This document shows positions 13,131 through 42,976 of a stretch of DNA of 64,000 nucleotides, one piece after another (positions within the stretch are counted from its first letter, which is position 1; each line of letters opens with the position of its first letter). This DNA comes from Bacteroidales bacterium. GTDB lineage: Bacteria; Bacteroidota; Bacteroidia; Bacteroidales; UBA932. The position numbers and the translations under genes were made by a program. The DNA lies in assembly GCA_017549145.1 (NCBI GenBank), contig JAFYVM010000066.1:1-64000 (forward strand), given 5' to 3'. The notes beneath the pieces are model-generated. The model worked only from the letters and a program-made list of their open reading frames with translations, was not told the origin of the DNA and did no database searches.

Positions 13131-13152
13131 AAACGTAAAATAACACTATATT

Positions 13153-25395: not shown

Positions 25396-25439
25396 GTCGG
25401 TGTGGATAATAAGACTTTTAATGTCTGTTGAATATACAG

Positions 25440-25478: not shown

Positions 25479-25568
25479 TTCTAAAAAAATATATTTTGAT
25501 TGAGTAAAAATACCTTCTTTTACGTATAATGATATATTGTGGCAATGACGCCATCAAATTAAGATGCT

Positions 25569-26567
25569 ATGAAATTTATTGATTTCGAAATAATGGAGAA
25601 ATACCTTGCAGGAAAGGCAAGTCCTGAGGAGGAGCATAAGGTCCTTATGTGGCTTATGCTCAACCTTAAATCTCCATCAGCAAATGATGATTTCACTGCT
25701 TTGCTTGATAAGGTTCCGCTCACCGAGGATCAGGCAAGAAAGCAGCGTGTGAAAGGTCGTCTTGACCGTATCATATCTGAGACAGGTGTGAGAAAAACGC
25801 GACGTAGAAGCACTGGAATTATTCTGGGTAGCTTGCTTGCTGTGGCGTGCTGTGTAATCGCATTTCTTTGTCTAGACATCTCAAGACTAAATAAGGAAAT
25901 TAATCAGACCGTTACTTGGACCGAGGTTTCTACTTCATATGGTGAGAAGCAGTCGGTCACATTGGCGGACGGATCAGTTATCTGGCTGAATAATGATTCT
26001 AAACTCATCTATCCCGATTCATTCAGAGGAGGACAACGCCAGGTTTTTGTTTCAGGAGAGGTGTTTGCTGAAATTGCCAAGGATGAGAAACGCCCTTTCA
26101 TTGTCTCTAGTGACAGCGTAAATGTAGTTGTAAAAGGTACGACATTCAATTTTCGTTCATATCCTGACATGCGTAATGTGGAACTTACTCTCGTGGAAGG
26201 TTCTGTAGACCTTGACTGCATCACCAGGGAGGGACGACGCACTATGGCTGTGATTCCGGGAGAGACCATAACCGTAGACATGGTCAGTGGAAAGGTTGGT
26301 AAATATATGTGCAAGACTGAAGGATATGTGAGTTGGAAGGCAAGACGTGCTTTGTATTTCAATGACCTTACCCTTGAGGAAATCGCACGTGAACTTCAGA
26401 GGGAGTACGGTAAGAAGATAGTCATAATGAAAAGCCATTTGGCAAGGACAAGGCATTTCGCTTCATTTGTAAATGATGAAAGTTTGGAAGAGATCCTGAA
26501 TGCTTTGTGTACCCATTCCGGAATGAAAGTACATGAAAAAGACTCGATTATTTATATTAACAACTAA
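25569..26567 (+). CDS. FecR-family anti-sigma factor
   Basis: The 332-residue protein has a cytoplasmic N-terminal helical part (MEKYLAGKASPEEEHKVL), one transmembrane helix at about 83-103, a periplasmic FecR domain (WTEVSTSYGEKQSVTLADGS, then FRGGQRQVFVSGEVFAEI) and a C-terminal DUF4974/STN-like domain (LTLEEIARELQREYGKKI). It holds an ECF sigma factor inactive until the partner TonB receptor with an STN domain signals ligand binding. The next gene is just such a receptor. No sigma gene precedes it; the only ECF sigma gene in the window is at 36322, in the same direction. I found no clear promoter; a TATAAT at 25525 has no matching upstream box. Confidence 0.93.
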   Translation: MKFIDFEIMEKYLAGKASPEEEHKVLMWLMLNLKSPSANDDFTALLDKVPLTEDQARKQRVKGRLDRIISETGVRKTRRRSTGIILGSLLAVACCVIAFLCLDISRLNKEINQTVTWTEVSTSYGEKQSVTLADGSVIWLNNDSKLIYPDSFRGGQRQVFVSGEVFAEIAKDEKRPFIVSSDSVNVVVKGTTFNFRSYPDMRNVELTLVEGSVDLDCITREGRRTMAVIPGETITVDMVSGKVGKYMCKTEGYVSWKARRALYFNDLTLEEIARELQREYGKKIVIMKSHLARTRHFASFVNDESLEEILNALCTHSGMKVHEKDSIIYINN

Positions 26568-26578
26568 TTAATAATTTT

Positions 26579-29500
26579 ATGCTAAAAGACCTATTAACAA
26601 CAGCATTCAGACGCTTTGCGGTTGTTGTGCTTACGTGTTTTGTGTCTTTTTCTGCATTCGCCCAACAAATGTCCATATCGTTGGACAAGGTGACTGTCAG
26701 GAAGGCATTGGAGCATCTCCAGCGTGAGTACAATTATTCGGTGAGCGTCCGATCCGATGAAATCGACATTGAACGTGTCGTTTCGGTTAAAGCTACGGAT
26801 CTTTCGTCCGTACTCAATCAGATCTTTGCAGGACAGAATGTGGAGTACTCTATCAACGGTACTTCAGTGTCTGTAAAGGCAAAGAAGGTGGTTGTCAAGG
26901 AAACTCCTGTTTCCAGACAGATTACTGGTAAAGTTCTCGACGAGGAGGCAATGCCGCTTGTAGGTGCTGCTGTCGTGGAAAAGGGAACAACTAATGGTGC
27001 AGTTGCGGATATTGATGGTAATTTCGCTATTACGCCTTCTTCACCTTCTGCAGTTCTCGTATTCTCTTTCTTCGGTTACGCCGATGAGGAAATCCAGGTT
27101 GGAAAATCGTCTGTAATCGAGGTTAAGATGACTCCACAGTCACTATCTCTTGATGATGTGGTTGTAGTCGGATATGGTTCGATGACAAGACGAGACATTA
27201 CATCGGCTGTAGGTTCATTCAAACCAAAGCCATCGGAAAGACGTGAGGTGCTTTCTGTTGATCAGATGCTTCAGGGTCGTGTTGCCGGTGTGAACATTAC
27301 AACTGCTTCAGGTATCCCAGGTGCATCAAGTCGCGTGAGCATCCGAGGCATTGGTTCGCTTAATGCAGGTAATGAACCTCTTTATGTGATTGACGGTGTA
27401 ATCCTTTCAACAACTTCAGGTGACACAGGAGCATATAGCGCAGGTGAATCAATGAGTGGCCTTGCAACTGTAAATCCATCTGATATTGAGTCAATTGAGG
27501 TGCTTAAGGATGCGGCTTCTGCTGCTATCTACGGTTCACGTGCGACCAATGGTGTCATTATCATCACCACCAAGTCAGGTAAGAAAGGTGCAGCAAAGGT
27601 TGCGGTTGATGCAAGTATCACAATGGGACAGCAGCCAAGAACTGAAACTCTCGAACTTGCTTCTGGTGACCTTCTTATTGAGGTGTTCAACGAGGGTATC
27701 GACAACTACAACAGACAATTCGGACAGAATATTGAGAGATTCATCAATCCTATGCCAGGCAAACCTGCATACGACTGGCTCGGTTCTGTGCTCCGTACCT
27801 CATGGTCTCATAATGTGACAACATCAATCTCGGGAGGAACAGATAATACAAAGTATTATGTTTCAGGTACATATAAGCATGTTGAGGGTACTGCTATAGA
27901 TAATGATATGAATCAGTACAGCATGAAGTCGAATGTTTCAGGCAAGGTTAAGCCTTGGCTTTCATTCGGAGTCAATATGATGCTTAGCTACAGCAAGAAT
28001 GACCGTGTCGCCAGTGGTTATTCAGGCCATAATGTGATCAAAGCTGCAGTAGAACAGTATCCTTGGCATGAGCCATTCCTTCCCAATGGCGACTGGGCTA
28101 CTTCAAAGAATATCCTAGTCAACAATAATGCACTTCAGGCTATCAAGGAGTCTGATGTATGGATTAAGACATATCGTGCTCTCAGCTCCGCATTCCTAGA
28201 GTTTCATATTATACCTGGTCTTGATTTCAAGACTAACGTAGGTGAGGATTTCCAGAGCCTTGAGGAGCATTGCTATTTCTCTTCAAAGCACAATTCAGGA
28301 TATCCTTCAGAAGATAACCCTATGGGAGGTCGCCTCATTGATTCAAGAGTCAATAGAGCATCTCTTATGTGGGATAACACATTGAGCTACAATAAGTCCT
28401 TTGAGAAAGGATTCAATATCGGTGCTGTACTCGGTCACTCATTGCAGATCTACGAGTCTTCATCTTCAAGCCAGACAGGTTTGGGATTCCCTTCAGCATC
28501 TTTTGATGTGAACTCTGTAGCAGCAACAGTAGAGGATGTTACTTCTGGAAAGAGTGCATACGCACTTCAGTCATTCTTCGCACGTGCTAACCTTAACTAT
28601 AAGAACCGTTATGTGGGAACATTTACAGTTCGTACCGACGGTTCGTCAAAATTTGCACCGGAGCATCGTTGGGGATGGTTCCCATCTGCTTCGCTCGGAT
28701 GGAATGTAAATGAGGAACAGTGGTGGAAGGCTGATGATATTTCATTGAAGGTTCGTGCTAGTGTAGGTGCTACAGGTAACCAGGGCGGTATCGGAAACTA
28801 TGCATATCAGGCACTTGCATCAGGTGGTATCAACTATGGTGGACAGAATGGTCTCGGTCTTAGTTCAGCAGGAAATCGCGACTTGAAGTGGGAGACAGCA
28901 ATTCAGGAAAACTTTGGTGTTGACCTTAGCCTTTGGAAGGGAGCCTTCTCAGTGACAGTGGATATCTTTAATAAGGATACCCAGAATCTCCTTTATAACA
29001 AGCCTACAATGATTTCGACCGGTTACACAACTCAGCTTTGCAACATCGGTGCGATGAACAATAAGGGTCTTGAGATTGCTCTTGCTGCAAATGCCGGAAA
29101 GAATTATTTCCGTTGGCATGCAGACTTCAATATCTCATTCGTGCGTAACAAACTCACCAAGCTCCTTGATGATAATGAAATCATTACTCCGTCAAGCTTC
29201 CACGGACTTAAGGTCGGAGAAGAGGTTGGTTCATTCTATATGGTAAAGATGCTCGGTATCTATCAGCATGATGAGGATGTTCCACAGTATCTCTATGAGA
29301 ATGAGGGAGTTCGTGCCGGTGATGTTATTTTTGAGGATATCAGCGGACCAGAGGGCATTCCTGATGGCAAGATTGACGCAAATGACCGTCAATTCGTCGG
29401 CTCTGCTAATCCAAAGTTCTCAGGTGGTTTCAACAATACATTCTCTTATAAGGGATTGGAACTCGGAGTATTCCTTACATATTCATACGGACAGAAACTC

Positions 29501-29914
29501 TATGAGTACTGGACTGGTGGTCTCCGTCTCGGAAATGGTCAGTGGCCACAGCTCAGATCAGTATGTGAGAATAGATGGACTGGTCCTGGTACAACCAATA
29601 CAACTCCTAGAGCTATCTATGGACAGACATGGAACAGTACTAAGTTTGTGAATACACGTTTCCTCCATGATGCTTCATACCTTCGTATCAGAAGCGTATC
29701 ATTGGGTTACAACTTGCCTAGCAGACTTCTTCAGAAAGCTAAGATCGATGCGCTCCGCGTTTATCTCCAGGCAGATAACCTATACGTGTTCACTCCATGG
29801 CCTTACCTCGATCCTGAAGTTTCAGTCAGCAGCAATGCAGCCACATATGGCTATGACTGGCTCAATCCTGGTCAGCCAAGAACATTCTCACTCGGTTTCA
29901 ACATTAAATTCTAG
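26579..29914 (+). CDS. SusC-type TonB-dependent transducer with STN domain
   Basis: The 1111-residue outer-membrane receptor has a signal peptide ending near AFAQ (residue 29), an STN domain at about 31-102 (ISLDKVTVRKALEHLQREY) and a carboxypeptidase-regulatory-like domain at about 115-190. The TonB-box/plug start DDVVVVGYGSMTRRDIT follows, then a barrel ending in FNIKF. The STN domain contacts the FecR periplasmic domain, so this receptor both imports a ligand and reports it. It lies 11 bases after fecR and 6 bases before susD, which supports a single regulatory and uptake unit. Confidence 0.95.
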   Translation: MLKDLLTTAFRRFAVVVLTCFVSFSAFAQQMSISLDKVTVRKALEHLQREYNYSVSVRSDEIDIERVVSVKATDLSSVLNQIFAGQNVEYSINGTSVSVKAKKVVVKETPVSRQITGKVLDEEAMPLVGAAVVEKGTTNGAVADIDGNFAITPSSPSAVLVFSFFGYADEEIQVGKSSVIEVKMTPQSLSLDDVVVVGYGSMTRRDITSAVGSFKPKPSERREVLSVDQMLQGRVAGVNITTASGIPGASSRVSIRGIGSLNAGNEPLYVIDGVILSTTSGDTGAYSAGESMSGLATVNPSDIESIEVLKDAASAAIYGSRATNGVIIITTKSGKKGAAKVAVDASITMGQQPRTETLELASGDLLIEVFNEGIDNYNRQFGQNIERFINPMPGKPAYDWLGSVLRTSWSHNVTTSISGGTDNTKYYVSGTYKHVEGTAIDNDMNQYSMKSNVSGKVKPWLSFGVNMMLSYSKNDRVASGYSGHNVIKAAVEQYPWHEPFLPNGDWATSKNILVNNNALQAIKESDVWIKTYRALSSAFLEFHIIPGLDFKTNVGEDFQSLEEHCYFSSKHNSGYPSEDNPMGGRLIDSRVNRASLMWDNTLSYNKSFEKGFNIGAVLGHSLQIYESSSSSQTGLGFPSASFDVNSVAATVEDVTSGKSAYALQSFFARANLNYKNRYVGTFTVRTDGSSKFAPEHRWGWFPSASLGWNVNEEQWWKADDISLKVRASVGATGNQGGIGNYAYQALASGGINYGGQNGLGLSSAGNRDLKWETAIQENFGVDLSLWKGAFSVTVDIFNKDTQNLLYNKPTMISTGYTTQLCNIGAMNNKGLEIALAANAGKNYFRWHADFNISFVRNKLTKLLDDNEIITPSSFHGLKVGEEVGSFYMVKMLGIYQHDEDVPQYLYENEGVRAGDVIFEDISGPEGIPDGKIDANDRQFVGSANPKFSGGFNNTFSYKGLELGVFLTYSYGQKLYEYWTGGLRLGNGQWPQLRSVCENRWTGPGTTNTTPRAIYGQTWNSTKFVNTRFLHDASYLRIRSVSLGYNLPSRLLQKAKIDALRVYLQADNLYVFTPWPYLDPEVSVSSNAATYGYDWLNPGQPRTFSLGFNIKF

Positions 29915-29920
29915 TACGTT

Positions 29921-31186
29921 ATGAAAAGAATCATTTATATATTGCTTGCTGCCGCAACATTCGGCGCAGTGTCTTGCAACGTGCTGGATCAGTATCCTCA
30001 TAATGCCGTTTCAAGGGATAATCTTTCCGAGGACGATTTGGCGTTGCTTTATACAGGACTTTATTGTTATTCACAGTACAAGCCTACCTTCGAGGGCTAT
30101 TTCCAGAATGATATGGCAGGAGGTGACTTTACACGTGGAGGTGGATCGAAATTCGCCACTCCAGAACTCTGGATCCGTGATGCTATCCTTCCTACATCTG
30201 GTTGGTCATCAACACCTTGGACTGGATATTATGCGTGGTTGTATCAGGTGAATGAGTTCATTACTGCTGCAGTAAAGAAGGAAGCTGATCCAAAGGTACG
30301 AGAGATGCTAGGTGGAGCATATCTGTTCCGTGGACTTATCTATTATAACCTTGTATCTAAGTACAGAAATGTACAGATTCTCCGTCAAGCAACCAATGAG
30401 CCTGTTCCAAATACTAATGAGGCTGAAGGATGGGCTTTCGTAGAGGAGAACCTCTCGAACGCAATTGAGATGTTGCCTAACTTCACCAATAAGAATTATG
30501 TTTCGGTTCAGGCTGCAAAGGCTATTATGGCCCGTGCGAAGATTGCTCAGGGTAAGCATGCCGAGGCAGCTGCACTTGCATTGGAACTCATAGAAGATCC
30601 TTCATTGGCATTAGCTGACTTCGACCTGATTTTCCGTGGTCAGGACAACAAGGAGGAGATCTTCACATTCATCAATGACAGCGAGGAGAGCGGACTTAAT
30701 TTCGCCAGTCAGTTCTATCAGCCAGCAACTACTTATGTTCCTACACGCGAAGTTATCGAATTGTTCACTACTGCTGATAAGCGTACAAACATTTCAGTAA
30801 TGGTTGATGGTGATGAGACTGTGCTTAACAAGTACAATAATATCAACACTACCAACCCTATCATTATTACTCGTTTGGCAGAGATGTACCTTATCGCTGC
30901 CGAGGGCCTTGGAATTGCTGGTGGAGGAGTGAAGTACCTGAATGCTCTTCGTGAGAAACGCGGACTTCCTGCAGTTTCCCCAAAGAACGATACAGAGCTT
31001 CTTACAGCTGTACTTGCAGAACGCAGACTCGAGTTCCTTGGTGAAGGTTTCAGATGGTTTGACCTTGTGAGAACCGGACGATTTACATCGGAGGTTGATC
31101 TCTCGGAGAAATACACAGTATTCCCGATTCCGCAGAGAGAACGAGATCTCAATCCTAACCTTGAGCAGAATGAATTGTGGAAATAA
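29921..31186 (+). CDS. SusD/RagB-type lipoprotein (short form)
   Basis: The 421-residue lipoprotein (anchoring cysteine in GAVSCNVLD) has the SusD fold signatures GGAYLFRGLIYYNLVSKY and ERRLEFLGEGFRWFDLVRTGR, then the usual ending ERDLNPNLEQN. It is about 100-180 residues shorter than most SusD proteins, including the one at 11337, so the ligand-binding loops are likely reduced. It is the partner of the STN-type SusC. Confidence 0.93.
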   Translation: MKRIIYILLAAATFGAVSCNVLDQYPHNAVSRDNLSEDDLALLYTGLYCYSQYKPTFEGYFQNDMAGGDFTRGGGSKFATPELWIRDAILPTSGWSSTPWTGYYAWLYQVNEFITAAVKKEADPKVREMLGGAYLFRGLIYYNLVSKYRNVQILRQATNEPVPNTNEAEGWAFVEENLSNAIEMLPNFTNKNYVSVQAAKAIMARAKIAQGKHAEAAALALELIEDPSLALADFDLIFRGQDNKEEIFTFINDSEESGLNFASQFYQPATTYVPTREVIELFTTADKRTNISVMVDGDETVLNKYNNINTTNPIIITRLAEMYLIAAEGLGIAGGGVKYLNALREKRGLPAVSPKNDTELLTAVLAERRLEFLGEGFRWFDLVRTGRFTSEVDLSEKYTVFPIPQRERDLNPNLEQNELWK

Positions 31187-31194
31187 TTGAGGCT

Positions 31195-32133
31195 ATGAAA
31201 AGATATTTATATATGACAATACTTGCCACAGTTGCTCTCGTACTGTGGTCATGTTCAAAAGAGCAGGAGGATGTCCACTATGTTCCTCGCACTCCGGTGG
31301 GAAAGACATTGTTGGCAGACTGTCCTGAAGTAGCCAGAATCTTCGCTGACACAACCTTTGTGATTACTGTCGGAGTAGAGGAGACTGACCTTCATATACA
31401 GACAATCGAGGGATATGTGCAGCAGCTACATCTTATCAGCGTGGATACTAAGGTTCCAGGTGTGAGAATGTCAGTTTCAATGCCGAACAACAGCACATAT
31501 ATCGGTGGCGGTTGGAATCGCCAGACTCTTACCGATATGGCAACAAAGATGGATGCACCTAGAGCTAGAGTTGCTGCTATGATAAATGGCGACTTCTGGC
31601 AGATGACAGCTCCAATCAATCCTCGTGGACCTGTTCACAAAGGAGGTACAATCCTTTCTTCTGCGTGGGATTATAATCCTGCAGTACCTCAGCAGGCGCT
31701 TAGTTTTGTTGGAGTGCTTGATGACGGCTCTATGGTTATTGCTCCTCGCTCTGACTATGATGAATACAAAAACCGTCTTAGAGAGTGTACAGGAGCAGGC
31801 TACATGATGCTTTCTGAGGGCCTTTTCCCAGGAACAGACTGGACTGCAAGAGATCCTCGTACTGCAATCGGATATACCGAGGATGGAGTTGTATGGCTTC
31901 TTACATGCGACGGTAGAAAGACTTTTGGTGCTGATGGTATGACTTATAAGGAAATGGGTTATATCTTCAAGAGTCTTGGTTGCGTGGGAGCAACAAACCT
32001 TGACGGTGGTGGATCTGCACAGATGCTTATCCGTCATCCTATTGCACATGTATGGCAGATTCGTAATAGCCCGGCAGATGGTACTGAGAGACCGGTAATT
32101 AATGGTTGGGCAGCAATTGTTGATGAACCATAG
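31195..32133 (+). CDS. NAGPA-type phosphodiester glycosidase lipoprotein
   Basis: The 312-residue lipoprotein (lipobox LVLWSC) belongs to the phosphodiester glycosidase family, named for the mammalian uncovering enzyme that removes GlcNAc from GlcNAc-1-phospho-mannose. Family motifs visible are INGDFWQM, RGPVHKGG, ARDPRTAIGYTED and the glycine-rich NLDGGGSAQM. Bacterial members remove sugar residues attached through a phosphate, so the ligand of this locus may carry sugar-phosphodiesters. The start at 31195 gives a clean signal peptide; an in-frame ATG at 31177 lies inside the susD coding end. A paralogue follows 4 bases downstream. Confidence 0.85.
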   Translation: MKRYLYMTILATVALVLWSCSKEQEDVHYVPRTPVGKTLLADCPEVARIFADTTFVITVGVEETDLHIQTIEGYVQQLHLISVDTKVPGVRMSVSMPNNSTYIGGGWNRQTLTDMATKMDAPRARVAAMINGDFWQMTAPINPRGPVHKGGTILSSAWDYNPAVPQQALSFVGVLDDGSMVIAPRSDYDEYKNRLRECTGAGYMMLSEGLFPGTDWTARDPRTAIGYTEDGVVWLLTCDGRKTFGADGMTYKEMGYIFKSLGCVGATNLDGGGSAQMLIRHPIAHVWQIRNSPADGTERPVINGWAAIVDEP

Positions 32134-32137
32134 TAAC

Positions 32138-33346
32138 ATGAAATCGATAGCATTATATTTATTATTATCATTATTGACAGTAGCTTGCGCTCAGAATAAC
32201 CCACAGCCGGAGCATCCAGTCAATGTGTTTACCGTTGATGCGCTTGTTCCTGACTATGGAGCTCCTGGCACAGAGGTAACTATCAAGGGTAACAACTTTC
32301 CTCAGGTTCTTTCTGAAATCGAGGTTTATTTCGGTGACCAGAAACTGGATATCGTATCCGGAAGCAAGATTGAATTGAAGGTGATTGCTCCCGAGCATAA
32401 GCCTGGAGATGTTCCTGTCATCATCAAGGTTGGTGACCGTACTGTAAAGAAGGATTTCTACTTCCTGGCGGGTAAACCTGAGCAGTATCCTACCTATCCC
32501 AAAACGGAGGCGGGCAAGATTCTGAAAGGGGAGACTTGTATCAAGGTTCTGGATATCCTTTGGGACACAACTTGTGTGGTTACTACAGGGCTGGACTACT
32601 ACCAGATGCAGATAAAGACTGATGCTAACGAACAACAGAATATATATCTTTTGAGAGCTGACTTATCTCAGAATATTGAAATGAAGGTTGTTCTTCCTAG
32701 TACAACCACATCGTCATCATGGAAGAAGCAGACCCTGACGGTAATGACCAAGAACAATTCTACTACATCAAAGCCAGTCTATGCAATGATTAACGCTGAT
32801 TTCTGGAATATGACATCTCCGATTAATCCTCGCGGACCTGTGCATTGTGGTGGAAGTGTCGTGTCGTCTGAGTGGGACTACGATCCGAAGCTTTCGCAGC
32901 AGGCACTCAGCTATGTCGGCATCACAACAGAGGGAATGATGACTATCGGATACAGACAAGATTATCCGTCTGCAATGATGAAGATGAAGGAGTGTACCGG
33001 AGCAGGTGTGGTAATGGTATATGACGGAAAGATTCAGTCGATTTCTACTGCAGCCAGAGATCCTCGTACAGCTATAGGCTATACAGCAGATAATGTAGTA
33101 TGGATGCTTACTGTAGATGGACGTCATGGAACTACAGGTATGACCTACCAGGAAATGGGTTCTATCTTCTTCTCGCTTGGATGTGTGGCGGCAGCCAATC
33201 TTGACGGTGGCGGATCAGCGCAGATGCTGATAAAGAACCCGCTGGGAGGTGCTCATAAGATATGTAACTGGCCTTCTGACCCGACAGACGGCAAAGGAGG
33301 AACAGAAAGGGCGGTCATCAACGCCTGGGCAGTATTCAAAAAATAA
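32138..33346 (+). CDS. TIG-domain NAGPA-type phosphodiester glycosidase lipoprotein
   Basis: The 402-residue lipoprotein (Cys near residue 17 in LLTVACAQN) has an IPT/TIG immunoglobulin-like domain at about 27-115 (VPDYGAPGTEVTIKGNNFPQ), then a catalytic domain closely like that of the preceding gene. It shares INADFWNMTSPINPRGPVH, ARDPRTAIGYTADNVVWML and NLDGGGSAQML. The TIG domain may act as a spacer or bind glycan. The pair looks like a tandem duplication with later gain or loss of the TIG domain. The start at 32138 was chosen for its signal peptide; the ATG at 32102 lies inside the preceding gene. Confidence 0.85.
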   Translation: MKSIALYLLLSLLTVACAQNNPQPEHPVNVFTVDALVPDYGAPGTEVTIKGNNFPQVLSEIEVYFGDQKLDIVSGSKIELKVIAPEHKPGDVPVIIKVGDRTVKKDFYFLAGKPEQYPTYPKTEAGKILKGETCIKVLDILWDTTCVVTTGLDYYQMQIKTDANEQQNIYLLRADLSQNIEMKVVLPSTTTSSSWKKQTLTVMTKNNSTTSKPVYAMINADFWNMTSPINPRGPVHCGGSVVSSEWDYDPKLSQQALSYVGITTEGMMTIGYRQDYPSAMMKMKECTGAGVVMVYDGKIQSISTAARDPRTAIGYTADNVVWMLTVDGRHGTTGMTYQEMGSIFFSLGCVAAANLDGGGSAQMLIKNPLGGAHKICNWPSDPTDGKGGTERAVINAWAVFKK

Positions 33347-33358
33347 AAACAACATAAA

Positions 33359-35119
33359 ATGAAAAGACTACTAAGACTATTAATGTGCATCGCGTTTGCT
33401 GCGACTGGTTTGTCTGCATGTCAGGCTCCAGAGCAGATAGATGTGACTAAACAGGCACCACGACTGATTTCAGTTGTGCCGTCTAATGTCTGGAACGGAT
33501 GTACGGCAATTATTTCCGGAATCGGATTTTCGGAGGTTGCAGATGAGAATGTAGTTACTGTTGACGGACAGCAGGTTGCAGTCAGCATGGCTACATCCAA
33601 CAGGCTTACCTTAACAATGCCTGAACATGCAGATGGAAAGGCAGTTATCGCAGTAAGTGTAAACGGACTTGAGGCAGATACTGTACTTGAGACCAATTAT
33701 ACTCAGCTTCCTGAACTTGTTGTAAAGGTTACTGGTATTACTCCTGCCAAGGGTTTTGCAGGTGATTTGGTGACAATTTCAGGAGAGAATTTCAGCACTG
33801 TTCCATCAGAAAACCTCGTAACTTTCGGAGATGTCCCTGCAACGGTTGAAAGCGTTACATCTACTACTCTCAAGGTTATCGCTCCAGAGCATCCTAAAGG
33901 TGCTGTAAATGTGAAGATTGTAACAGGTGGCAAGACTCTTACAGCTCCTTCTCAGTTTACTTATATGGTATTTGCCATCGATTCAAACTATCCTGAGAGA
34001 GGTGCAGAGGGTGACAAGGTAACTATCAAAGGAGATGGCTTCAGCCTTGTTCCGTCTGAGAATATTGTAATGGTTGGAGAGCAGGTGGCATCTGTTGAAG
34101 CATCAACAGAGACATCTCTTACAGTCATTATGCCTGATAATGCCGAGGGTGAGTATACATTCTCTGTCACTGTAGGAAATAAGACTGTCACTGGAGGTAA
34201 GTTTGTGTATGGCGGATCATGGAGAGTTCAGACCCTGGTTACCGGATATAGTAAAGTTCAGGATCTTGCACTAGCATCGGATGGTACATTCTGGATTACT
34301 CGACGTGAGACAGGAGCACATGGCATATATAAGTTTAATCCTCAGACCAATGTCTTGAGCCCTGTTAAGGTCTCTTCAGGAAGCACAGCATCGGATTCTG
34401 ACCTTTTGGCTAATAGTCATCCATGGGGAGCAGATGTCGGACCTGACGGAAAACTGTATTTTGCTGCTAAGAATACCGCTAAGATTCTTACATGTGACGC
34501 ACAGGGTAATATTGCGCAGTATGTTATTAATAACCAGACAATTGCTAACCCTATGAAGGTTCTATGCGCATCAGACGGTACTATCTATGTGCTTGTCAGA
34601 GGAGCAGGAGCTGGTCTTGGATATGTCCTTCAGGTTAATAACGGTGATGTTCAAAACACATGGCCGCTCACTACAGCTCTATATGAAATGATGTGCTTCA
34701 ATGCTGATAAGACAAAGATTTTCGTCTTTGCAAACACTTCTGGTGATATTCAGATGATTGATCTTGTCAGCAAGAATATGACGAGAGTTGCTGGTATTGG
34801 AACAAATCATAGTAATGCTGCTTCATATACCGATGGAGAACCTGGAAATCCATTGACAGCTACTGTCCGCCAGGCAGAGGGAGCTGTATGTGCAGCAGAT
34901 GGAACTATATATTTTACTGATTCTATCGGTAAGACTATAAGAATGTTCAAGCCAGGTCCAAATGGTGATTATTCAAAAGGTACAATCGAAACTATTCTTG
35001 GTACTCCTTATGACAATACTGTTCTTCCATACCCTAATGGAATAGCATTGGGTCCTGATGGAAAGACACTCTATTATCTTGAGAATAGTGGTATGGTCCT
35101 TAAAATCTTCTACAAGTAA
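33359..35119 (+). CDS. lipoprotein with three IPT/TIG domains and an NHL-type propeller
   Basis: The 586-residue lipoprotein (Cys21 in GLSACQAPE) has three IPT/TIG domains at about 32-115, 122-200 and 205-285, each with the PxxVWNGCTAIISGIGF-like or GDLVTISGENFS pattern. A C-terminal beta-propeller follows, with NHL-like repeats (DLALASDGTFWITRR, GADVGPDGKLYFAAKN, GAVCAADGTIYFTDS, NGIALGPDGKTLYYL). No catalytic motif is visible. In Sus-like loci TIG-NHL proteins take the position of surface glycan-binding proteins, and I infer that role. The C-terminal third is very like that of the gene at 40573. Its stop overlaps the next start by one base. Confidence 0.85.
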   Translation: MKRLLRLLMCIAFAATGLSACQAPEQIDVTKQAPRLISVVPSNVWNGCTAIISGIGFSEVADENVVTVDGQQVAVSMATSNRLTLTMPEHADGKAVIAVSVNGLEADTVLETNYTQLPELVVKVTGITPAKGFAGDLVTISGENFSTVPSENLVTFGDVPATVESVTSTTLKVIAPEHPKGAVNVKIVTGGKTLTAPSQFTYMVFAIDSNYPERGAEGDKVTIKGDGFSLVPSENIVMVGEQVASVEASTETSLTVIMPDNAEGEYTFSVTVGNKTVTGGKFVYGGSWRVQTLVTGYSKVQDLALASDGTFWITRRETGAHGIYKFNPQTNVLSPVKVSSGSTASDSDLLANSHPWGADVGPDGKLYFAAKNTAKILTCDAQGNIAQYVINNQTIANPMKVLCASDGTIYVLVRGAGAGLGYVLQVNNGDVQNTWPLTTALYEMMCFNADKTKIFVFANTSGDIQMIDLVSKNMTRVAGIGTNHSNAASYTDGEPGNPLTATVRQAEGAVCAADGTIYFTDSIGKTIRMFKPGPNGDYSKGTIETILGTPYDNTVLPYPNGIALGPDGKTLYYLENSGMVLKIFYK

Positions 35120-36312
35120 TGAAAAGGTTTTTATCAGTATTTATAATCCTTGCAGGACTCATGTCTGTGTCCTGTAAGGAAAACTATGTAGCTTCGGTTA
35201 CCGAGCTACAGCTTGCAAGTGTATCTCCTGCAACCGGTTATCCTGGAGCTATCATCACTGTGTATGGCCGCAATTTTAGTAATGAATTCGGTGAGAATAA
35301 GGTGTTTATCGGCGAAAAGGAAGCGAAGGTTCTTGAGTACAATTCATGGGATCTAACCGTGGTTGCTCCAGAGCAAGAGGTGGGTACTTATTCTATTACA
35401 GTTGTGACTCCAAAGGGCTCTATTACAGGCCTTTCCTTTGACTATGTAGAGAAGCCTGAGCACGAGTATATCGTATCTACAATTGCCGGTAACGGCAAGA
35501 ATGCACATGCTGATGGCGCAGGTACAGCAGCGCAGTTCTCATTCCCTGAGGGAATCGTTCTCGACAAGGAAGGTAACCTTTGGGTGTCACAGCGTGGTAC
35601 AACTACAGCGATCCGTAAGATCGACCCTAACTTCAATGTGACAACAGTGACTACAACAGAGCTTCCATGGCATGGCTCATTTGCTCCGGATGGAAGCTAC
35701 TGGTTTGCAGGTAAACCAAAGGCAAAGATCTATAAAGTCGGTTCGGACAATGCTGTAAGCGAGGTAAATGTCACCGGTACAACTCTCAACAACCCTATGG
35801 ATGTGAGATTTGATAAGGATGGCAATGCATGGATCTGTAACCGTGGAGCAAATGAGGTCTGCAAAGTAGCCGGAACAACAGTTGTAAAGACATACGAAGT
35901 TCCAGTGAATGCCTGCATCACTTTCGATGCTAAGGGTAGAGCGATCGTAGGTTCTGAAACATCAGGATACCTCTACATGATCGACGGTGACAATGTAGTA
36001 CAGATCGCCGGTACAGGCGCAATGTCAACTTCAGGAAATCTTGACGGAACAAAGGGCGATCCTTCAACAGCTACTATCGGCTGTACATGCGGTATTTTCG
36101 CAGCGAAGGACGGCTCGGTATATTTCTGCGACCGTACTAACCTTGCAGTCCGAAAGATCACTCCTGATGAGAACGGAGACTATACAAAGGGTACTGTCAA
36201 GACACTTGTGACAGGCTCATACCCTTCAGACCTCTATGTTTCTGACGATTGCACTAGAATTTACCTCACTTGTGCTACTGCTCATGTAGTAAAATTGATA
36301 GAAATATTCTAA
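35119..36312 (+). CDS. lipoprotein with one IPT/TIG domain and an NHL-type propeller
   Basis: The 397-residue lipoprotein (Cys20 in LMSVSCKEN) has one IPT/TIG domain (about 30-110, ATGYPGAIITVYGRNFS) and a propeller with the repeats PEGIVLDKEGNLWVSQRG, MDVRFDKDGNAWICNRG and GIFAAKDGSVYFCDR. It is a shorter relative of the preceding protein with two fewer TIG domains. A surface-binding role is inferred from its position; no enzyme motif is seen. The sigma factor gene follows after 9 bases. Confidence 0.85.
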   Translation: MKRFLSVFIILAGLMSVSCKENYVASVTELQLASVSPATGYPGAIITVYGRNFSNEFGENKVFIGEKEAKVLEYNSWDLTVVAPEQEVGTYSITVVTPKGSITGLSFDYVEKPEHEYIVSTIAGNGKNAHADGAGTAAQFSFPEGIVLDKEGNLWVSQRGTTTAIRKIDPNFNVTTVTTTELPWHGSFAPDGSYWFAGKPKAKIYKVGSDNAVSEVNVTGTTLNNPMDVRFDKDGNAWICNRGANEVCKVAGTTVVKTYEVPVNACITFDAKGRAIVGSETSGYLYMIDGDNVVQIAGTGAMSTSGNLDGTKGDPSTATIGCTCGIFAAKDGSVYFCDRTNLAVRKITPDENGDYTKGTVKTLVTGSYPSDLYVSDDCTRIYLTCATAHVVKLIEIF

Positions 36313-36321
36313 TTTTGGCGT

Positions 36322-36849
36322 ATGTCTTCGGATAAGCATCTTATACGTGCCGTTAAATGCGGTGACAAGAAGAGTTTTGACGAGCTCTTTGAGAAGTACT
36401 ATGACAGGTACTTCTCCTTCGCCTGTGCATTGCTGCATGATGCGGATGCTGCCGAGGACATACTGCAGAATGTCTTTCTTAAAATCTGGATAGGTCGTGA
36501 CAGACTTGATGAGTCTCGCAATTTCGAGAGTTATCTGCTAGTATCTGTCCGAAATGAAATCTTCGACCACTTGAGACTGAAATACAATCAGACTTCTGTA
36601 CGTGACGATGTCAGCGAGAAGGAGGACGCTACCGCAGATATTGAGGCAGGTATTGCTCTTACTGAAACTTCTGCAATAATGAATCAGAAGATCAGTCAGA
36701 TGCCTCCTCAAAGGCAGCGCATCTTCATGATGTCTCGCTATGAGAATATGTCTTCAAAGGAGATTGCCGACAAACTCGGGCTTTCTGTTCGTACGGTCGA
36801 TAATCATATCTATCTGGCTTTAAGGGAATTAAAGCAAATAATATCATAA
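36322..36849 (+). CDS. ECF-type RNA polymerase sigma-70 factor
   Basis: The 175-residue protein has sigma region 2 (FEKYYDRYFSFACALL, AEDILQNVFLKIW) and region 4 with its helix-turn-helix (SSKEIADKLGLSVRTVDNHI), and no other domains. It belongs to the Bacteroidales sigma class that pairs with FecR. The usual order is sigma then fecR then susC; here fecR is 9.8 kb upstream at the head of the same gene string and sigma sits before the GH20 gene. If they pair, the sigma gene is inside its own target operon, giving positive feedback. The stop overlaps the GH20 start by one base. Confidence 0.93.
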   Translation: MSSDKHLIRAVKCGDKKSFDELFEKYYDRYFSFACALLHDADAAEDILQNVFLKIWIGRDRLDESRNFESYLLVSVRNEIFDHLRLKYNQTSVRDDVSEKEDATADIEAGIALTETSAIMNQKISQMPPQRQRIFMMSRYENMSSKEIADKLGLSVRTVDNHIYLALRELKQIIS

Positions 36850-38492
36850 TGAGAAAAATCTTTTTGTCTTGTGTGCTGGCTGTTATGGCAGTTTCGGCAT
36901 ACGCAAAGGTTACTATCGTTCCATATCCACAGCAGGTGGTTGAGAATGAAGGTAGTTACAAACTCGCAGGTGTATCGCTCCGCAGTGTAGGTGCAATCGA
37001 TGAGAGAACACAGGCTCTTGTCGAGCGTTTCGCTGCAGAACTTTCACAGGCAACCGGAAAATCAAGCAAGGTTATTAAAGGCAAGGCCGGCAAGGGAATC
37101 AACTTTATCTATGACCAGACAATGGCTGAGGAGGCCTATGTTCTCAATGTAGGTACTAAGTCTATTGATATCAAGGCCTCCTCCCTTCGCGGATTCAACT
37201 GGGCTGTTCAGTCTCTCAAGCAGATGATGCCTGTTGAAATCTATGCAGGGAAGGCTGTCGAGGATGTTGAGTGGACTGTTGGCTGCTGCCAGATTACCGA
37301 TGCGCCTCGCTTCGGATACCGCGGACTTCTTATTGATGAGGCACGTCATTTCTTCGGAATGGAGACAATCAAGGACGTGCTTGATGTAATGGAGATCCAC
37401 AAGCTCAACAAACTTCACTGGCATATCACTGACGATCAGGGATGGCGTATCGAGATCAAGAAGTATCCTCTTCTTACTCAGGTAGGTTCTATCCGTAAGG
37501 AAACTCTAGTTGGACACCTCCGTCGCAGCACAGTATATGACGGTACACCATATGGTGAGGGAATGTGGTATACTCAGGATCAGATTAGAGAGATTGTAGA
37601 GTATGCTGCTACTAAGGGTATTGATATCATTCCTGAAATTGACCTACCAGGCCATATGCAGGCTGCGCTTACAGCATATCCTTATCTTGGATGTACTGGA
37701 GGGCCGTATGAAGTATGGACAAAGTGGGGAGTGTCAAAGGACGTTCTCTGTATCGGTAAGGAGACAACAATGGAGTTTATCCTTGACGTACTTTCTGAGG
37801 TTTGCGACCTCTTCCCGTCAAAGTTTATCCACATCGGCGGTGATGAGTGTCCTAAGGTTAAGTGGGCGGAATGTCCTCATTGCCAGCAGAAGATTCTGGA
37901 ACTTGGAATCAAGGCTGACGAAAAGCACTCGGCAGAGCATTTCCTCCAGAGCTATGTCACAGCACGCGCAGAGCAGTATCTTGCAACACGCGGACGTAGA
38001 CTCATCGGTTGGGATGAGATTCTTGAAGGCGAACTTGCACCGGATGCAACAGTTATGTCATGGAGAGGAACAAAGGGTGGCGAGGCAGCTGTAAAGCTTG
38101 GTCATGATGTCATTATGACTCCATACCAGTACCTTTACCTTGATTACTATCAGTCAAAGGAGCAGGATAAGGAGCCTCTTGCAATCGGAGGTTATGTGCC
38201 AGTTGAGAAATGCTACTCGTTCGAGCCGTTCACAGATGAGATGACTCCTGAGCAGAAGGAACATATTCTCGGCGTGCAGGCTAACCTTTGGACTGAGTAT
38301 ATCGGTGATCAGGACTACCTTGAATACATGCTTCTTCCAAGACTTTCAGCCCTCAGCGAGGTGCAGTGGTGCGCACCGGAGAACAAGATTTGGGAACGCT
38401 ACCTTGACAGCGTTGACGAGGTTATAAATATATATGAGACAGCTGGATACAATCCTGCAAAGCATGTTCTTGCCGTTCAGAAAGCAAAATAA
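36849..38492 (+). CDS. GH20 beta-N-acetylhexosaminidase
   Basis: The 547-residue protein has a signal peptide (cut near residue 19), a GH20b N-terminal domain and a GH20 TIM barrel. The catalytic pair is D332-E333 in IHIGGDECPK; supporting motifs are LNKLHWHITDDQGWRIEIK and IIPEIDLPGHMQAA. Family members release terminal GlcNAc or GalNAc from glycans by substrate-assisted catalysis. No lipobox is visible, so it is probably periplasmic. With the NAGPA-type enzymes upstream it suggests a GlcNAc-containing ligand. Its translation is coupled to the sigma gene. Confidence 0.95.
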   Translation: MRKIFLSCVLAVMAVSAYAKVTIVPYPQQVVENEGSYKLAGVSLRSVGAIDERTQALVERFAAELSQATGKSSKVIKGKAGKGINFIYDQTMAEEAYVLNVGTKSIDIKASSLRGFNWAVQSLKQMMPVEIYAGKAVEDVEWTVGCCQITDAPRFGYRGLLIDEARHFFGMETIKDVLDVMEIHKLNKLHWHITDDQGWRIEIKKYPLLTQVGSIRKETLVGHLRRSTVYDGTPYGEGMWYTQDQIREIVEYAATKGIDIIPEIDLPGHMQAALTAYPYLGCTGGPYEVWTKWGVSKDVLCIGKETTMEFILDVLSEVCDLFPSKFIHIGGDECPKVKWAECPHCQQKILELGIKADEKHSAEHFLQSYVTARAEQYLATRGRRLIGWDEILEGELAPDATVMSWRGTKGGEAAVKLGHDVIMTPYQYLYLDYYQSKEQDKEPLAIGGYVPVEKCYSFEPFTDEMTPEQKEHILGVQANLWTEYIGDQDYLEYMLLPRLSALSEVQWCAPENKIWERYLDSVDEVINIYETAGYNPAKHVLAVQKAK

Positions 38493-38512
38493 CGACTAAT
38501 AACTGAATACTT

Positions 38513-38671
38513 ATGAAATTTAAAACAGCAACCACGGGTGATCTTCCTGTTTACGGAGGAAATCTCGTCTACAAGAGCCCAGACATAACTCTTGTGGAAA
38601 TCAATTCTGAAGGCATGCTTTGCCTCAGCGGACAGAATCAGGAGTTTAATGAAGAGGTTTTCCCTTGGTAA
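38513..38671 (+). CDS. small 52-residue protein, function unknown
   Basis: An ATG at 38513 opens 52 codons ending in TAA at 38669-38671. The product starts MKFKTATTGDLPVYGG, continues LVYKSPDITLVEINSEG, then MLCLSGQNQEFNEEVFPW. It has no signal peptide or membrane segment, is acidic at the C-terminus and ends in Trp. Three points favour a real gene: it lies 20 bases after GH20 in the same direction, fills the gap to the next gene, and its stop codon overlaps the strong ribosome-binding site of that gene. I recall small Bacteroidales proteins with a YxxP...EI..EG.LC.SG pattern, but I know no function for them. Confidence 0.65.
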   Translation: MKFKTATTGDLPVYGGNLVYKSPDITLVEINSEGMLCLSGQNQEFNEEVFPW

Positions 38672-38683
38672 GGAGGTATGATT

Positions 38684-40561
38684 ATGAAGACAAACAGAAT
38701 CGTTTTGATGGCGCTCGCATGCGTAGCTGCCATTTCCTGTGCCAAGGAAATCGAGACTCCTTCCACAGTATCGGCAACATCATTCGTTGCAGAAAAAGAA
38801 GATTTTACAACAACTAAGGCTGTTCTCAACGGCAAGAAGGTTGAGTGGACAGCAGGTGATCAGGTTGCAGTATACGGTGACGCTGGCGCAGTGAAGTTTA
38901 CAACAGCTGCTGCAGGCGCTTCTGCAACATTTACATCAGAGGCGGCAGTAACAGGTTCATCATTCCTTATGGTGTCTCCATTTAGCGCAGCTAAGGGTGT
39001 TCAGAATGGTAAGCTCCTTGTGACTGTACCTGAAAATCAGGCCCCGGTTGCTGGTTCATTTGATCCTGCTGCGGGTATTTCTGTAGCATCTGCTGCGGAT
39101 TTCAATCAGGGCGTATCATTTAAGAATGCAATGGCGCTCCTTAAGATCAATATACCTAGTGTTCTTGGCGGAAAGGTAGTTAAAATTACTGTTGAGGCTA
39201 AGAATGGTGAGGCTCTTGCGGGTGATATTCTTGTTGATCCATCTACAAAAGCTAACTCGGTAAGTGCAAATGGCAAGTCTGCAGTGAACCTCCTTACAGC
39301 GCCTTCAATGGCTGCTGCAAACTATTATGTTGCAGTTCGTCCTTGCGCAGTTGCTACGGGTGTGAAGGTGACAGTCCTCCTCGGTGATAAGACTGTTTAC
39401 ACTCGCGAATCTGCATCTGCATTCGAGTTTGAGGCAAATACAATCTATGACATGGGTGTTGTAGGAGTTACAGGATGGTCAATGACTACAACTGAATACT
39501 CTGTAGCTACAGTTCTCGGTTCGGTATCAGCGACATCAAACAACGAGATCAAGACAGGAACAGGTTCTGCAGCTCGTCTTAGAAGTGCACAGGACATTGA
39601 TAAGGCTCCGGATGGAAACTTCTGGATCACAACACGTTTTGATAAACCAAATCACGGTATATGGAAGATGACTCCGGACTACACACTTTCAAAGATTGCT
39701 GTTGTAGCGGATGATGCGGATCTAACGGGAGCTCACCCATGGGGCGCTTCGTTTGACGCAAATGGCAAATATATCTTTGCTGCCAAGGCTGTTGCGAAGG
39801 TTATGACATGTTCTGCTGATGGTGCTGTAGATGTTATTGCCCTTAAGAATGGTGATGCAAACTACTCGGTGTCCAACCCTATGGAGGTGAAATTTGACGC
39901 ACAGGGTAATATGTTCGTTCTCTACAGAAAGAAACTTGTTAAGTTCAACGGATATACTGTGGCAAAGGAATGGACTCTTCCAGAGGAATACACTGATGCC
40001 TTCTGTTTCACTGCAGACTATAGCAAGGCCCTTGTATTCGGTTATATGAAGGTTTATCAGATCGATCTTAATGACCCAGCTGCAGAGGTTAAGGTTATTG
40101 CCGGCGGTGCATCTAAGCATACAAATGCTTCAACTTACAAAGATGGTGAAATGGGCAAACCGTTGACAGCTACATTCAACACTTGTTATGATGCAATGTG
40201 CCTCGCAGACGGTACAATTCTCTTTGGTGATGCTGCAGCAAAGACTATGCGTCTTATGATACCAGATGTATACGGAAACTTTGAGAATGCTACTATCAAG
40301 ACTATCCTTGGCGGCGCATGGAGCGGTGGCGCGGCAGCAAACGCTCAGGCAACTAATGCAAAGGACGGAAAGGGTACTGCCGGTCTCCTTTCATCACCTG
40401 GCGGATTGACATTCGACGCACAGGGTAATGTCCTCTTCGTAGATGGTCTCCAGAATGGTATGATCCGCAAGATGACATGGACAAGCGTTACCGAAAATTG
40501 TAGTATGAATGGAAGTCATCAGGATTATGCAGGTACTGACGGTATGGTTTCAATCTTTTAA
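38684..40561 (+). CDS. lipoprotein, fimbrillin-like N-domain fused to NHL-type propeller
   Basis: The 625-residue lipoprotein (Cys near residue 19 in VAAISCAKE) has an N-terminal part of about 250 residues resembling Bacteroidales fimbrillin/Mfa-type proteins (VEWTAGDQVAVYG, then FLMVSPFSAAKG and a beta-rich domain). The C-terminal part is an NHL-like propeller (DIDKAPDGNFWITTRF, GASFDANGKYIFAAK, GGLTFDAQGNVLFVDG). An AAGGAGG site at 38670-38676 is followed by ATGs at 38678 and 38684; the 7-base spacing favours 38684. No catalytic residues are visible; a surface-binding or structural role is inferred. Confidence 0.8.
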   Translation: MKTNRIVLMALACVAAISCAKEIETPSTVSATSFVAEKEDFTTTKAVLNGKKVEWTAGDQVAVYGDAGAVKFTTAAAGASATFTSEAAVTGSSFLMVSPFSAAKGVQNGKLLVTVPENQAPVAGSFDPAAGISVASAADFNQGVSFKNAMALLKINIPSVLGGKVVKITVEAKNGEALAGDILVDPSTKANSVSANGKSAVNLLTAPSMAAANYYVAVRPCAVATGVKVTVLLGDKTVYTRESASAFEFEANTIYDMGVVGVTGWSMTTTEYSVATVLGSVSATSNNEIKTGTGSAARLRSAQDIDKAPDGNFWITTRFDKPNHGIWKMTPDYTLSKIAVVADDADLTGAHPWGASFDANGKYIFAAKAVAKVMTCSADGAVDVIALKNGDANYSVSNPMEVKFDAQGNMFVLYRKKLVKFNGYTVAKEWTLPEEYTDAFCFTADYSKALVFGYMKVYQIDLNDPAAEVKVIAGGASKHTNASTYKDGEMGKPLTATFNTCYDAMCLADGTILFGDAAAKTMRLMIPDVYGNFENATIKTILGGAWSGGAAANAQATNAKDGKGTAGLLSSPGGLTFDAQGNVLFVDGLQNGMIRKMTWTSVTENCSMNGSHQDYAGTDGMVSIF

Positions 40562-40572
40562 TTAGAACGGAC

Positions 40573-42303
40573 ATGAAAAAAATTACATTATATACTCTGT
40601 CACTTGCAGCAATAATGTCTATAAGCTGCGCAAAAGAAGAAGCTCCAGAGGTGGTCTGTGGCAATCCTGTAGTGTTTGAGGCTGCTCTTGGTGATGCGGA
40701 TTCAAAGGCTATCTTGACTGAGGGTGCAAGTTCATCTAAGGTGTCGTGGGAGGCTGGTGATCAGGTGTCTCTCTGGGCTGAATCAAAGATGTATCAGTAT
40801 AAAGCAGATAAAAGTGCTGCAGTGTCAACCCTTAGTCCTATGGCGGGATCATCACTCGCAGACGAGTATTTTGCTCTCTATCCATATGATGCAACAGCTA
40901 CACTTGCATCAGGAGTGATTACTACTACACTTCCATCTGTACAGACAGCAAAATTAGGGTCATTCTCTCATCATCTTGCTGTATCTTATTCGACATCACT
41001 TTCACTCGGATTCATGAATGTATGCGGACTTTTCAGAATTGATATTACTGAGCCTGCTGTTACAAAGATTGAGTTCAAAGGTAATGCAAATGAGACTGTT
41101 GCAGGTGAGATTGCAATTACTGTGGGCGATAAACCGACATGGAGTGCTGTTTCTGGAGCGAAGACAGTTACCCTTTCTGCAGGTGAGGGTAAGTTCCTTC
41201 AGACAGGTGCATACTATCTTGCAATTCTTCCACAGGACTTTAATTCGGGTGTAACAGTTACCACATATTATAATGATAATACTACTTATGTGAAGACTGT
41301 GACTGAGAAAGTGTCGCTTGTTCCATCTGGAGCTATTGCCGCAACTATTGCATCAGGACAGTGGAAATACGAAGAGCTTCTATCATTAGGCGGATATGCC
41401 CCAGAGGATCTTGTAAGAGATGCAGACGGCAATTTCATATATACGACTCGTGCGACAGTTCATGGAATCTGGAAGTATGAGGTTGCCTCAAATACTAAAA
41501 CTCCGATTGCAGTATATTCTAACTCATCTACAACTGACTATCCAAATGAGCACAACGCTGCTTTGAACGGTCAGGCTCCATGGGGAATTGCTTTGGATTC
41601 TAAAGGGACAATTTATTATGCGGCAAAGGCAAAAGGCAAACTCATGACCTGTACAGGTAAGGCTGCTGTTAGCGAGTATATCGTAAAGGAAACAGCGGAT
41701 GCTACATCCGGCATGTCACTGCCTAATATCATGAAAATTGCATTTGATGCTGCTGATAATATGTATGTTCTTGTTAGAGGTTCAGGTGCAGGTCTTGGAT
41801 TCGTTTTGAAGGTGAAGAACAATGTCGTTCTCAAGAGATGGGATCTTACGCAATATCTATATGAGTTTATGTGTATCAGTTATGACAAGACTAAACTGTT
41901 CCTTTTCCCAAACAGTTCAGGACTTATTCAGATGATTGACCTTACTACAGGCACAATGACAAAGGTGGCCGGAAGCGGTACGCAGCACACCGCCGCAGCT
42001 TCATACAGTGATGGCGTACCTGGCAATCCATTTACTGCATCTCTTGGACAGTGTGAAGGTGCCGTATGTGATGCTAACGGAACAATATATTTCACAGATG
42101 CAGCAAAGGGTAAGACCATCAGAATGTTTACTCCTGACGCAAATGGAGACTATAGCAAGGGTACTATTAGAACAATTCTAGGAACACCTTATAGTAATGC
42201 AGTCCTTCCATATCCTAACGGTATTGAGTTGGCCGCTGATGGTAAGACGTTCTATTATCTCGAAAATGGCGGTAAGATACGTAAGGTATCTTATGTGAGA
42301 TAA
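40573..42303 (+). CDS. lipoprotein, fimbrillin-like N-domain fused to NHL-type propeller
   Basis: The 576-residue lipoprotein (Cys near residue 20 in MSISCAKEE) has the same plan as its neighbour: a fimbrillin-like N-domain (KVSWEAGDQVSLWAE, then EYFALYPYDATATLA) and a propeller. The propeller is closer to that of the TIG protein at 33359 than to the adjacent one: both carry YVLVRGSGAG-type, AASYSDGVPGNPFTA-type and ILGTPYSNAVLPYPNG-type segments. This is the last gene of the locus and is closed by a strong terminator. Confidence 0.8.
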   Translation: MKKITLYTLSLAAIMSISCAKEEAPEVVCGNPVVFEAALGDADSKAILTEGASSSKVSWEAGDQVSLWAESKMYQYKADKSAAVSTLSPMAGSSLADEYFALYPYDATATLASGVITTTLPSVQTAKLGSFSHHLAVSYSTSLSLGFMNVCGLFRIDITEPAVTKIEFKGNANETVAGEIAITVGDKPTWSAVSGAKTVTLSAGEGKFLQTGAYYLAILPQDFNSGVTVTTYYNDNTTYVKTVTEKVSLVPSGAIAATIASGQWKYEELLSLGGYAPEDLVRDADGNFIYTTRATVHGIWKYEVASNTKTPIAVYSNSSTTDYPNEHNAALNGQAPWGIALDSKGTIYYAAKAKGKLMTCTGKAAVSEYIVKETADATSGMSLPNIMKIAFDAADNMYVLVRGSGAGLGFVLKVKNNVVLKRWDLTQYLYEFMCISYDKTKLFLFPNSSGLIQMIDLTTGTMTKVAGSGTQHTAAASYSDGVPGNPFTASLGQCEGAVCDANGTIYFTDAAKGKTIRMFTPDANGDYSKGTIRTILGTPYSNAVLPYPNGIELAADGKTFYYLENGGKIRKVSYVR

Positions 42304-42320
42304 GCCTTGAATAAAACAAA

Positions 42321-42367
42321 TGCTGGTGACTAATCAGTCGTAAGACTTTTTAGTCACCAGCACTGTT
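42321..42367. terminator. strong hairpin terminator between convergent genes
   Basis: A 13-bp perfect stem (TGCTGGTGACTAA at 42321-42333 with its complement at 42350-42362) lies 17 bases after the propeller gene and 14 bases after the convergent PAP2 gene. T-rich tracts follow on both strands, so it probably ends both transcripts. Confidence 0.8.
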
Positions 42368-42376
42368 TTATAGTAT

Positions 42377-42976
42377 TTAATATTTTTTGTTAGCAATGCT
42401 GACTGCGAGGCCAAGTGTGAGGCCGATGATCAGGCCTGCGATTGTGCCTACGATGACGTCTCCGAGGTAGTGCTTGCCGACGAAGATGCGGCTGATTCCT
42501 ACCAATGCTGCCCATGTGAACATAAACCAGCCGTACCACTTGATGATCTTTACATCTGCTGGGTTAGATGAGTCAGCAAGACCTTTCTTCAGACCAAGCC
42601 AGGTACATCCTGCCAGCCCGAAGGAGTTGGCTGCATGTGCCGAGAAGAAACTATAACCACCTCCTAGTTCAAGGATGTTCAGACCGTTTCCGACCATGAA
42701 CTCATCGTGTAAAGGTCGGATACGTGCTACGGTGTGCTTGATAAGATTTGCGAACTGATCGCAGAATACGATAGTCAGAATCGTTCCAAGAATCAGCATG
42801 CCGCCTTTCTTCCAGCCTAGCTTCCAGATGATCAGCGCAAGTATCGCCGCATAGAGCGGTACCCACACAAGCTTCATAGAAAGGAAGGCCCAGATGGGAT
42901 CGCTGAATGCTGAATTCCAACTGTTGATTGTTAGGGTAATCTGCTGGTCAAGATGATGAACGTTTTGCCAGAACAT
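42377..42976 (-). CDS. PAP2-family membrane phosphatase
   Basis: The 199-residue protein has about five transmembrane segments and the three PAP2 motifs: KHTVARIRP, YSFFSAHAAN (a PSGH variant with the first catalytic His) and SRIFVGKHYLGDV with the second His and Asp. Members dephosphorylate lipid phosphates such as undecaprenyl pyrophosphate or phosphatidic acid. Its ATG overlaps the obg stop by one base, so it is the second gene of an obg unit. Confidence 0.92.
   Translation of the reverse strand: MFWQNVHHLDQQITLTINSWNSAFSDPIWAFLSMKLVWVPLYAAILALIIWKLGWKKGGMLILGTILTIVFCDQFANLIKHTVARIRPLHDEFMVGNGLNILELGGGYSFFSAHAANSFGLAGCTWLGLKKGLADSSNPADVKIIKWYGWFMFTWAALVGISRIFVGKHYLGDVIVGTIAGLIIGLTLGLAVSIANKKY

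Follow-up and report, generated by a model that had tools for sequence, protein, structure and literature searches.

What does a bacterium do with an operon whose only clear enzyme to recur across sister species is homologous to the one that uncovers mannose-6-phosphate tags? Such a conserved operon offers a testable entry to phosphoglycan use. The one studied here lies at 25569-42303 of the window (the whole 64,000-nucleotide stretch of Bacteroidales DNA that was analysed), on contig C66; the draft genome has 2.35 Mb and is 83% complete (Table 1). All open reading frames named in the original prediction were found where it had placed them on the + strand, and Pfam and NCBIfam agree on the FecR, SusC, SusD, ECF sigma and GH20 assignments, on the TIG domains and on the two members of the phosphodiester glycosidase family (NAGPA). 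The genes are co-directional and number 12 instead of the thirteen announced. They are separated by gaps of −32 to +20 nt if the first NAGPA gene is taken to start at the ATG (31195; the same frame opens at a GTG, 31177). The upper bound of the transcription unit is an intrinsic terminator behind the upstream Mur-ligase gene, which is on the same strand. The downstream neighbours, PAP2 and GTP1/OBG genes, are on the opposite strand. Two genes upstream of the operon, the minus strand encodes a protein of 1031 aa (20375-23470) that has a Golvesin_C domain and matches Amidase_3 below threshold.

Table 1. Features of the operon and its borders (window coordinates).
Feature	Position	Strand	Evidence
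Intrinsic terminator, 3' of upstream Mur-ligase gene	25438-25468	+	−23.5 kcal/mol, z −6.1
FecR-type anti-sigma factor	25569-26567	+	PF04773 66.2 bits, PF16344 52.4
SusC, N-terminal STN signalling domain	26579-29914	+	TIGR04056 843 bits; Plug 71, STN 27.9 bits
SusD lipoprotein	29921-31186	+	PF07980 (SusD_RagB) 80.4 bits
NAGPA-family lipoprotein, conserved core enzyme	31195-32133 (GTG 31177)	+	Pfam NAGPA 114.5 bits, cut-off 25
Accessory second NAGPA, one TIG domain	32102-33346	+	PF09992 114.0 bits (cut-off 25), PF01833 44.6
Lipoprotein P0003, three TIG domains followed by NHL-type propeller	33359-35119	+	TIG 122 bits
Lipoprotein, one TIG domain followed by NHL-type propeller	35119-36312	+	TIG 48 bits, Vgb_lyase 46 (cut-off 50), NHL 25
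ECF sigma factor, within operon	36322-36849	+	TIGR02985 166 bits (cut-off 126); sigma regions 2 and 4 above cut-off
GH20 (beta-hexosaminidase family), accessory	36849-38492	+	PF00728 389.5 bits; 6q63 572 bits
Small protein, 52 aa	38513-38671	+	homologue in L196 13279-13425
Propeller lipoprotein, non-TIG stalk	38678-40561	+	weak propeller-family matches
Propeller lipoprotein, non-TIG stalk	40573-42303	+	51% identity to 33359-35119 over the propeller part
Terminator-like hairpin, downstream of operon	~42321-42362	.	−29 kcal/mol, z −7.3

The operon has the adjoining SusC and SusD genes of a SusCD polysaccharide utilisation locus, and its genes for glycan-active enzymes and surface lipoproteins run in one direction and are tightly packed, as gene content and gaps show. 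A crude pattern recognises lipoprotein-like N-termini in SusD, both NAGPA and the propeller proteins, and also flags the sigma factor and GH20. The proposal of a self-regulated uptake locus is supported to the extent that the operon encodes its own sigma and anti-sigma factors (Pfam, NCBIfam). All parts of a trans-envelope ECF sigma/FecR circuit are present: FecR, the sigma factor and an STN domain on the receptor, the latter slightly below the Pfam cut-off in the window (27.9 bits vs 28.4) and above it in the SusC orthologue of genome G010 (41.6 bits). The Bacteroidetes housekeeping promoter pattern had no match within 25300-42400.

We searched 400 genomes of the genus with SusD (E ≤ 1e-30) and obtained matches in 56 of them, own genome included; outside the window, relatives that share 50-83% identity occupy 29 places. 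In 29 of the 30 best SusD places, counting the window, NAGPA is encoded directly downstream of SusD (the exception is L192). Apart from the window, 21 long stretches were read: that of G010 (L195) and 20 further SusD places (L196-L215). SusC and SusD stand as a pair in the window and in all 21 (in L201 SusC is interrupted by the contig end), and NAGPA follows directly 3' of SusD in 20 (it is absent from L215 and shortened in L212). The first TIG/NHL gene comes next in 19 of the 21 and the second in 17, with L201 and L211 reaching the contig end. The gene order that was to be sought in other Bacteroidales genomes is thus kept in many sister species, and because it repeats there, the operon is beyond chance. 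The G010 locus, first found through its NAGPA, encodes in order FecR (42% identity to the window protein), SusC (63%), SusD (53%), a single NAGPA (58%), two TIG/NHL proteins (36% and 39%), the sigma factor (45%) and a final pair of propeller proteins. Across 14 loci the identities of the five core proteins (SusC, SusD, NAGPA, two TIG/NHL) correlate strongly (r 0.94-0.98), which would fit joint inheritance and is no independent proof of function. In the window and in L195-L200 (split over two frames in L197) the sigma gene lies 3' of the second TIG/NHL gene; nine loci (L202-L206, L209, L210, L213, L215) have it ahead of FecR.

Outside the genus, with at most four or five candidates scored per genome, the same threshold gave SusD matches in 6 of 393 genomes of the order (28-31% identity) and, among 325 genomes of the class, in the own genome only. 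Other families have other SusCD-NAGPA arrangements (L106, L107, L113, L116, L119, L124). In L107 a single 914-aa protein (L107:4088-6832) carries GDPD, GxDLY/GDSL and DUF4855 domains.

The core enzyme matches the NAGPA family profile and has a complete fold. It shares RT and NLDGGGS with vertebrate NAGPA, and PRT, DGR and NLDGGGS with 3OHG; these family motifs have a catalytic role. Fold and motifs uphold the assignment of the NAGPA-type enzymes to a sugar-phosphodiester family. In an alignment of 20 operon NAGPA (A3, with L199, L205, L206 and L212 left out), DGGGS is kept in 19 rows and PR[TNS] in all 20. The protein of L214 (L214:12294-13247) lacks DGGGS and retains its Pfam match (60 bits); it is perhaps a binding-only relic. 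The shortened gene of L212 is merged in one frame with the first TIG/NHL gene. In the tree, the second NAGPA of the window clusters with a NAGPA pair of contig C19. The C19 NAGPA locus (L030:15266-17485, L063) is followed by a GH92 gene, and 5' of it is a cluster with GH20, MFS, amidohydrolase, glucosamine-6-P isomerase-type and UxuA genes.

The own genome has 16 NAGPA domains, the highest number among the genomes counted, along with 22 SusD genes (23 matches, two sharing one frame) and 11 GH20 matches. NAGPA was found in 27 of the 36 genus mates examined, at 0 to 6 per genome, and the genome nearest by SusD (G578) has 10. At E ≤ 1e-10, 71 of 393 genomes of the order have the family, and the next highest count is that of G392 (8 scored of 11 candidates). 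A SusD gene on the same strand is no more than 5 kb away from 10 of the 16 NAGPA of the own genome and from 24 of the 64 on the stretches fetched from genus mates, where some of the remaining ones are near contig ends.

The operon encodes four propeller lipoproteins, on two kinds of stalk. Their propellers score weakly in Pfam (TEN_NHL, SGL, NHL, Vgb_lyase). The structure model of P0003 is almost entirely made of strands (mean pLDDT 89.3, pTM 0.63). The last two had been called fimbrillin-NHL lipoproteins; their propellers match known families weakly, and the fimbrillin label goes back to the first reading of the sequence alone because neither Pfam nor NCBIfam matched a fimbrillin-type family in the 38678 or 40573 proteins. 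A second core enzyme may be present among the propellers because of their weak likeness to lyase/lactonase families (Vgb_lyase 46 against a cut-off of 50). Immediately 5' of the third propeller gene, the small proteins of the window (52 aa) and of L196 (48 aa, 13279-13425) have a common EGxLCxSG core, and a 44-aa open reading frame occupies the equivalent place in L075/L195.

The enzymes around this core vary. GH20 resembles 6q63, labelled beta-hexosaminidase, and has a GH20 catalytic domain with a visible GGDE pair, which we take to be catalytic. It is the only glycoside hydrolase that Pfam detects in the operon. We observe it in four of the seven loci with the window-type sigma placement (window, L196, L198, L199) and in none of the other stretches, of which L201, L204 and L211 end before that place. 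Hexosamine release as part of the system, as originally proposed, is therefore not supported, GH20 lying outside the conserved core. The second NAGPA occurs in the same four loci. L198 and L199 score nearly identically and may stand for a single event. Seven other loci (L202, L203, L205, L206, L209, L212, L213) have an EEP-family lipoprotein 3' of the second TIG/NHL gene, L203 and L205 being more than 99% identical to L206. Among the four of this first type that were tested, L202 is above the Pfam cut-off and L206, L212 and L213 are below; a second EEP domain exceeds it on an NHL protein in both loci tested (L206, L213) and as a free-standing protein in L202. The occurrence of this second phospho-enzyme family in part of a sister branch agrees with the original reading; the three scores below the cut-off and the nucleases within the EEP superfamily count against it. 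Another Sus locus of the window (8035-15845) consists of SusC, SusD, a BT_3987-N/GLUG lipoprotein and an EEP-family lipoprotein; NAGPA loci on contigs C65 and C77 and in genome G016 contain related GLUG proteins.

Our preferred explanation, to which we give a probability of about 55%, is that of a SusCD nutrient-uptake operon that would be induced by its own substrate and whose NAGPA would cut the sugar-1-phosphodiester of a phosphate-bridged glycan. A phosphodiester is the likeliest common denominator because NAGPA is the sole clear enzyme of the conserved core, and the gene content suggests that bacteria with this operon feed on phosphate-linked glycan. Most likely, the substrate comes from another microbe or a eukaryote in the gut and is a glycan or glycoconjugate with phosphate bridges; such glycans occur on bacteria, fungi and protists. 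By analogy with the known families, SusD and the TIG/NHL propellers, whose predicted surface display follows from the N-termini described above, would dock the substrate at the cell surface for import through SusC. Contact between STN and FecR would free the sigma factor, which would transcribe its own operon in a positive feedback. The NAGPA lipoprotein would hydrolyse the sugar-1-phosphodiester of the captured glycan, as in the uncovering-enzyme reaction, leaving the phosphate on the acceptor. In the window, the second NAGPA and GH20 would extend the attack, GH20 trimming beta-linked hexosamine; in part of a sister branch the EEP-family lipoproteins probably act on the remaining phosphate ester or diester. 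Against this explanation count the L214 enzyme without DGGGS, the shortened one of L212, and the lack of NAGPA at L192 and L215, as well as the missing enrichment of phosphoesterases and of GH20 in NAGPA-Sus loci (below). More tentatively, the operon could belong to a class of uptake loci for phosphate-bridged glycans. Their defining activity would be a NAGPA-fold surface enzyme in place of glycoside hydrolases, with propellers for docking; the product would be finished in some branches by GH20 together with another NAGPA and in others by EEP phosphodiesterases.

Sus loci with NAGPA (37) were compared with 46 other Sus loci for the families that accompany them. Four phosphoesterase families together show no enrichment (10/37 vs 11/46, p 0.80, uncorrected), and S1/P1 nuclease alone is found in 4/37 vs 0/46 (p 0.036, uncorrected). 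No accessory family settles the substrate because the p values carry no correction, the compared loci are related to one another, the EEP profile was of the window's other type, and the operon's own family is represented by the window and G010 only.

One specific substrate inside the preferred explanation is a Gram-positive-type wall, in which NAGPA would cut the alpha-GlcNAc-1-phosphate–MurNAc C6 bond of wall teichoic acid, leaving the polymer and its beta-GlcNAc branches to other enzymes. The bond is chemically like GlcNAc-1-P-6-Man, and some members of the GHL10 family are cell-wall-active (compare Cwp19). GHL10 is commoner in NAGPA-Sus loci (10/37 vs 3/46, p 0.015, uncorrected), yet eight of the ten cases are in genus mates (L060, L070, L074, L078, L086, L092, L094, L099) and look like one cassette, whose L060 copy has DUF5018 and GHL10-DUF4985 (Pfam). 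Similarly, the GDPD domain of L107 would suit a wall target, but GDPD occurs in 1/37 vs 2/46 loci, and Pfam finds neither family in the window operon. We consider this substrate unlikely. It is quite improbable that the operon is an ordinary locus for host- or protist-type N-glycans or hexosamines, with NAGPA as a secondary activity against occasional phosphate caps. The likeness of GH20 to a beta-hexosaminidase, the 7 of 16 own NAGPA that lie within 12 kb of a GH20 and the GH92 gene after the C19 locus would agree with it; however, GH20 is outside the conserved core, shows no enrichment in NAGPA-Sus loci (5/37 vs 2/46, p 0.23) and is accompanied by no other glycoside hydrolase (Pfam). Least probable of all is a non-nutritional, sigma-controlled apparatus for surface adhesion or sensing, with propellers that bind and a NAGPA that binds or remodels: the four propellers on two stalk kinds and the motif-less NAGPA of L214 speak for it, and the ubiquitous SusC-SusD pair and the near-constant DGGGS speak against it.

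The named records with related NAGPA genes include two MAGs of Bacteroidales, one from the rumen of a yak and one from the omasum of a goat, which suggests a ruminant-gut habitat. The operon could yield enzymes for phosphoglycan analysis and for mannose-6-phosphate engineering. Among the matches listed in the open-access literature there was no paper on NAGPA in SusCD loci, nothing on how gut bacteria consume phosphate-bridged glycans and no characterised locus with this gene set, the last being no proof of absence.

How does the operon compare with known systems? Like the Bacteroidetes SusCD loci under ECF sigma/FecR control, it has an STN-SusC, SusD, FecR, an ECF sigma factor and co-directional lipoproteins. 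It differs from them in the conserved core of its family, which is without a clear glycoside hydrolase, and in the sigma gene, which is inside the operon in the window group and ahead of FecR in the nine sister loci. The SusC-SusD-DUF5018-NAGPA-GHL10 cassette of L060, from the same genus, also has NAGPA downstream of SusCD; unlike the window operon, it includes GHL10 and has no detected TIG/NHL propeller, and its NAGPA forms a long and distant branch whose position in the tree is uncertain. The operon NAGPA is 23% identical to each reference protein of the NAGPA fold, and that of the window is a SusCD-operon lipoprotein with a predicted activity, not a Golgi enzyme. Finally, the TIG/NHL profile matches the solved structures 3hrp, 3tc9, 4hw6 and 3kya in their TIG or propeller parts; compared with these, the operon encodes proteins with as many as three TIG domains, and its four propeller copies are mounted on two stalk types.
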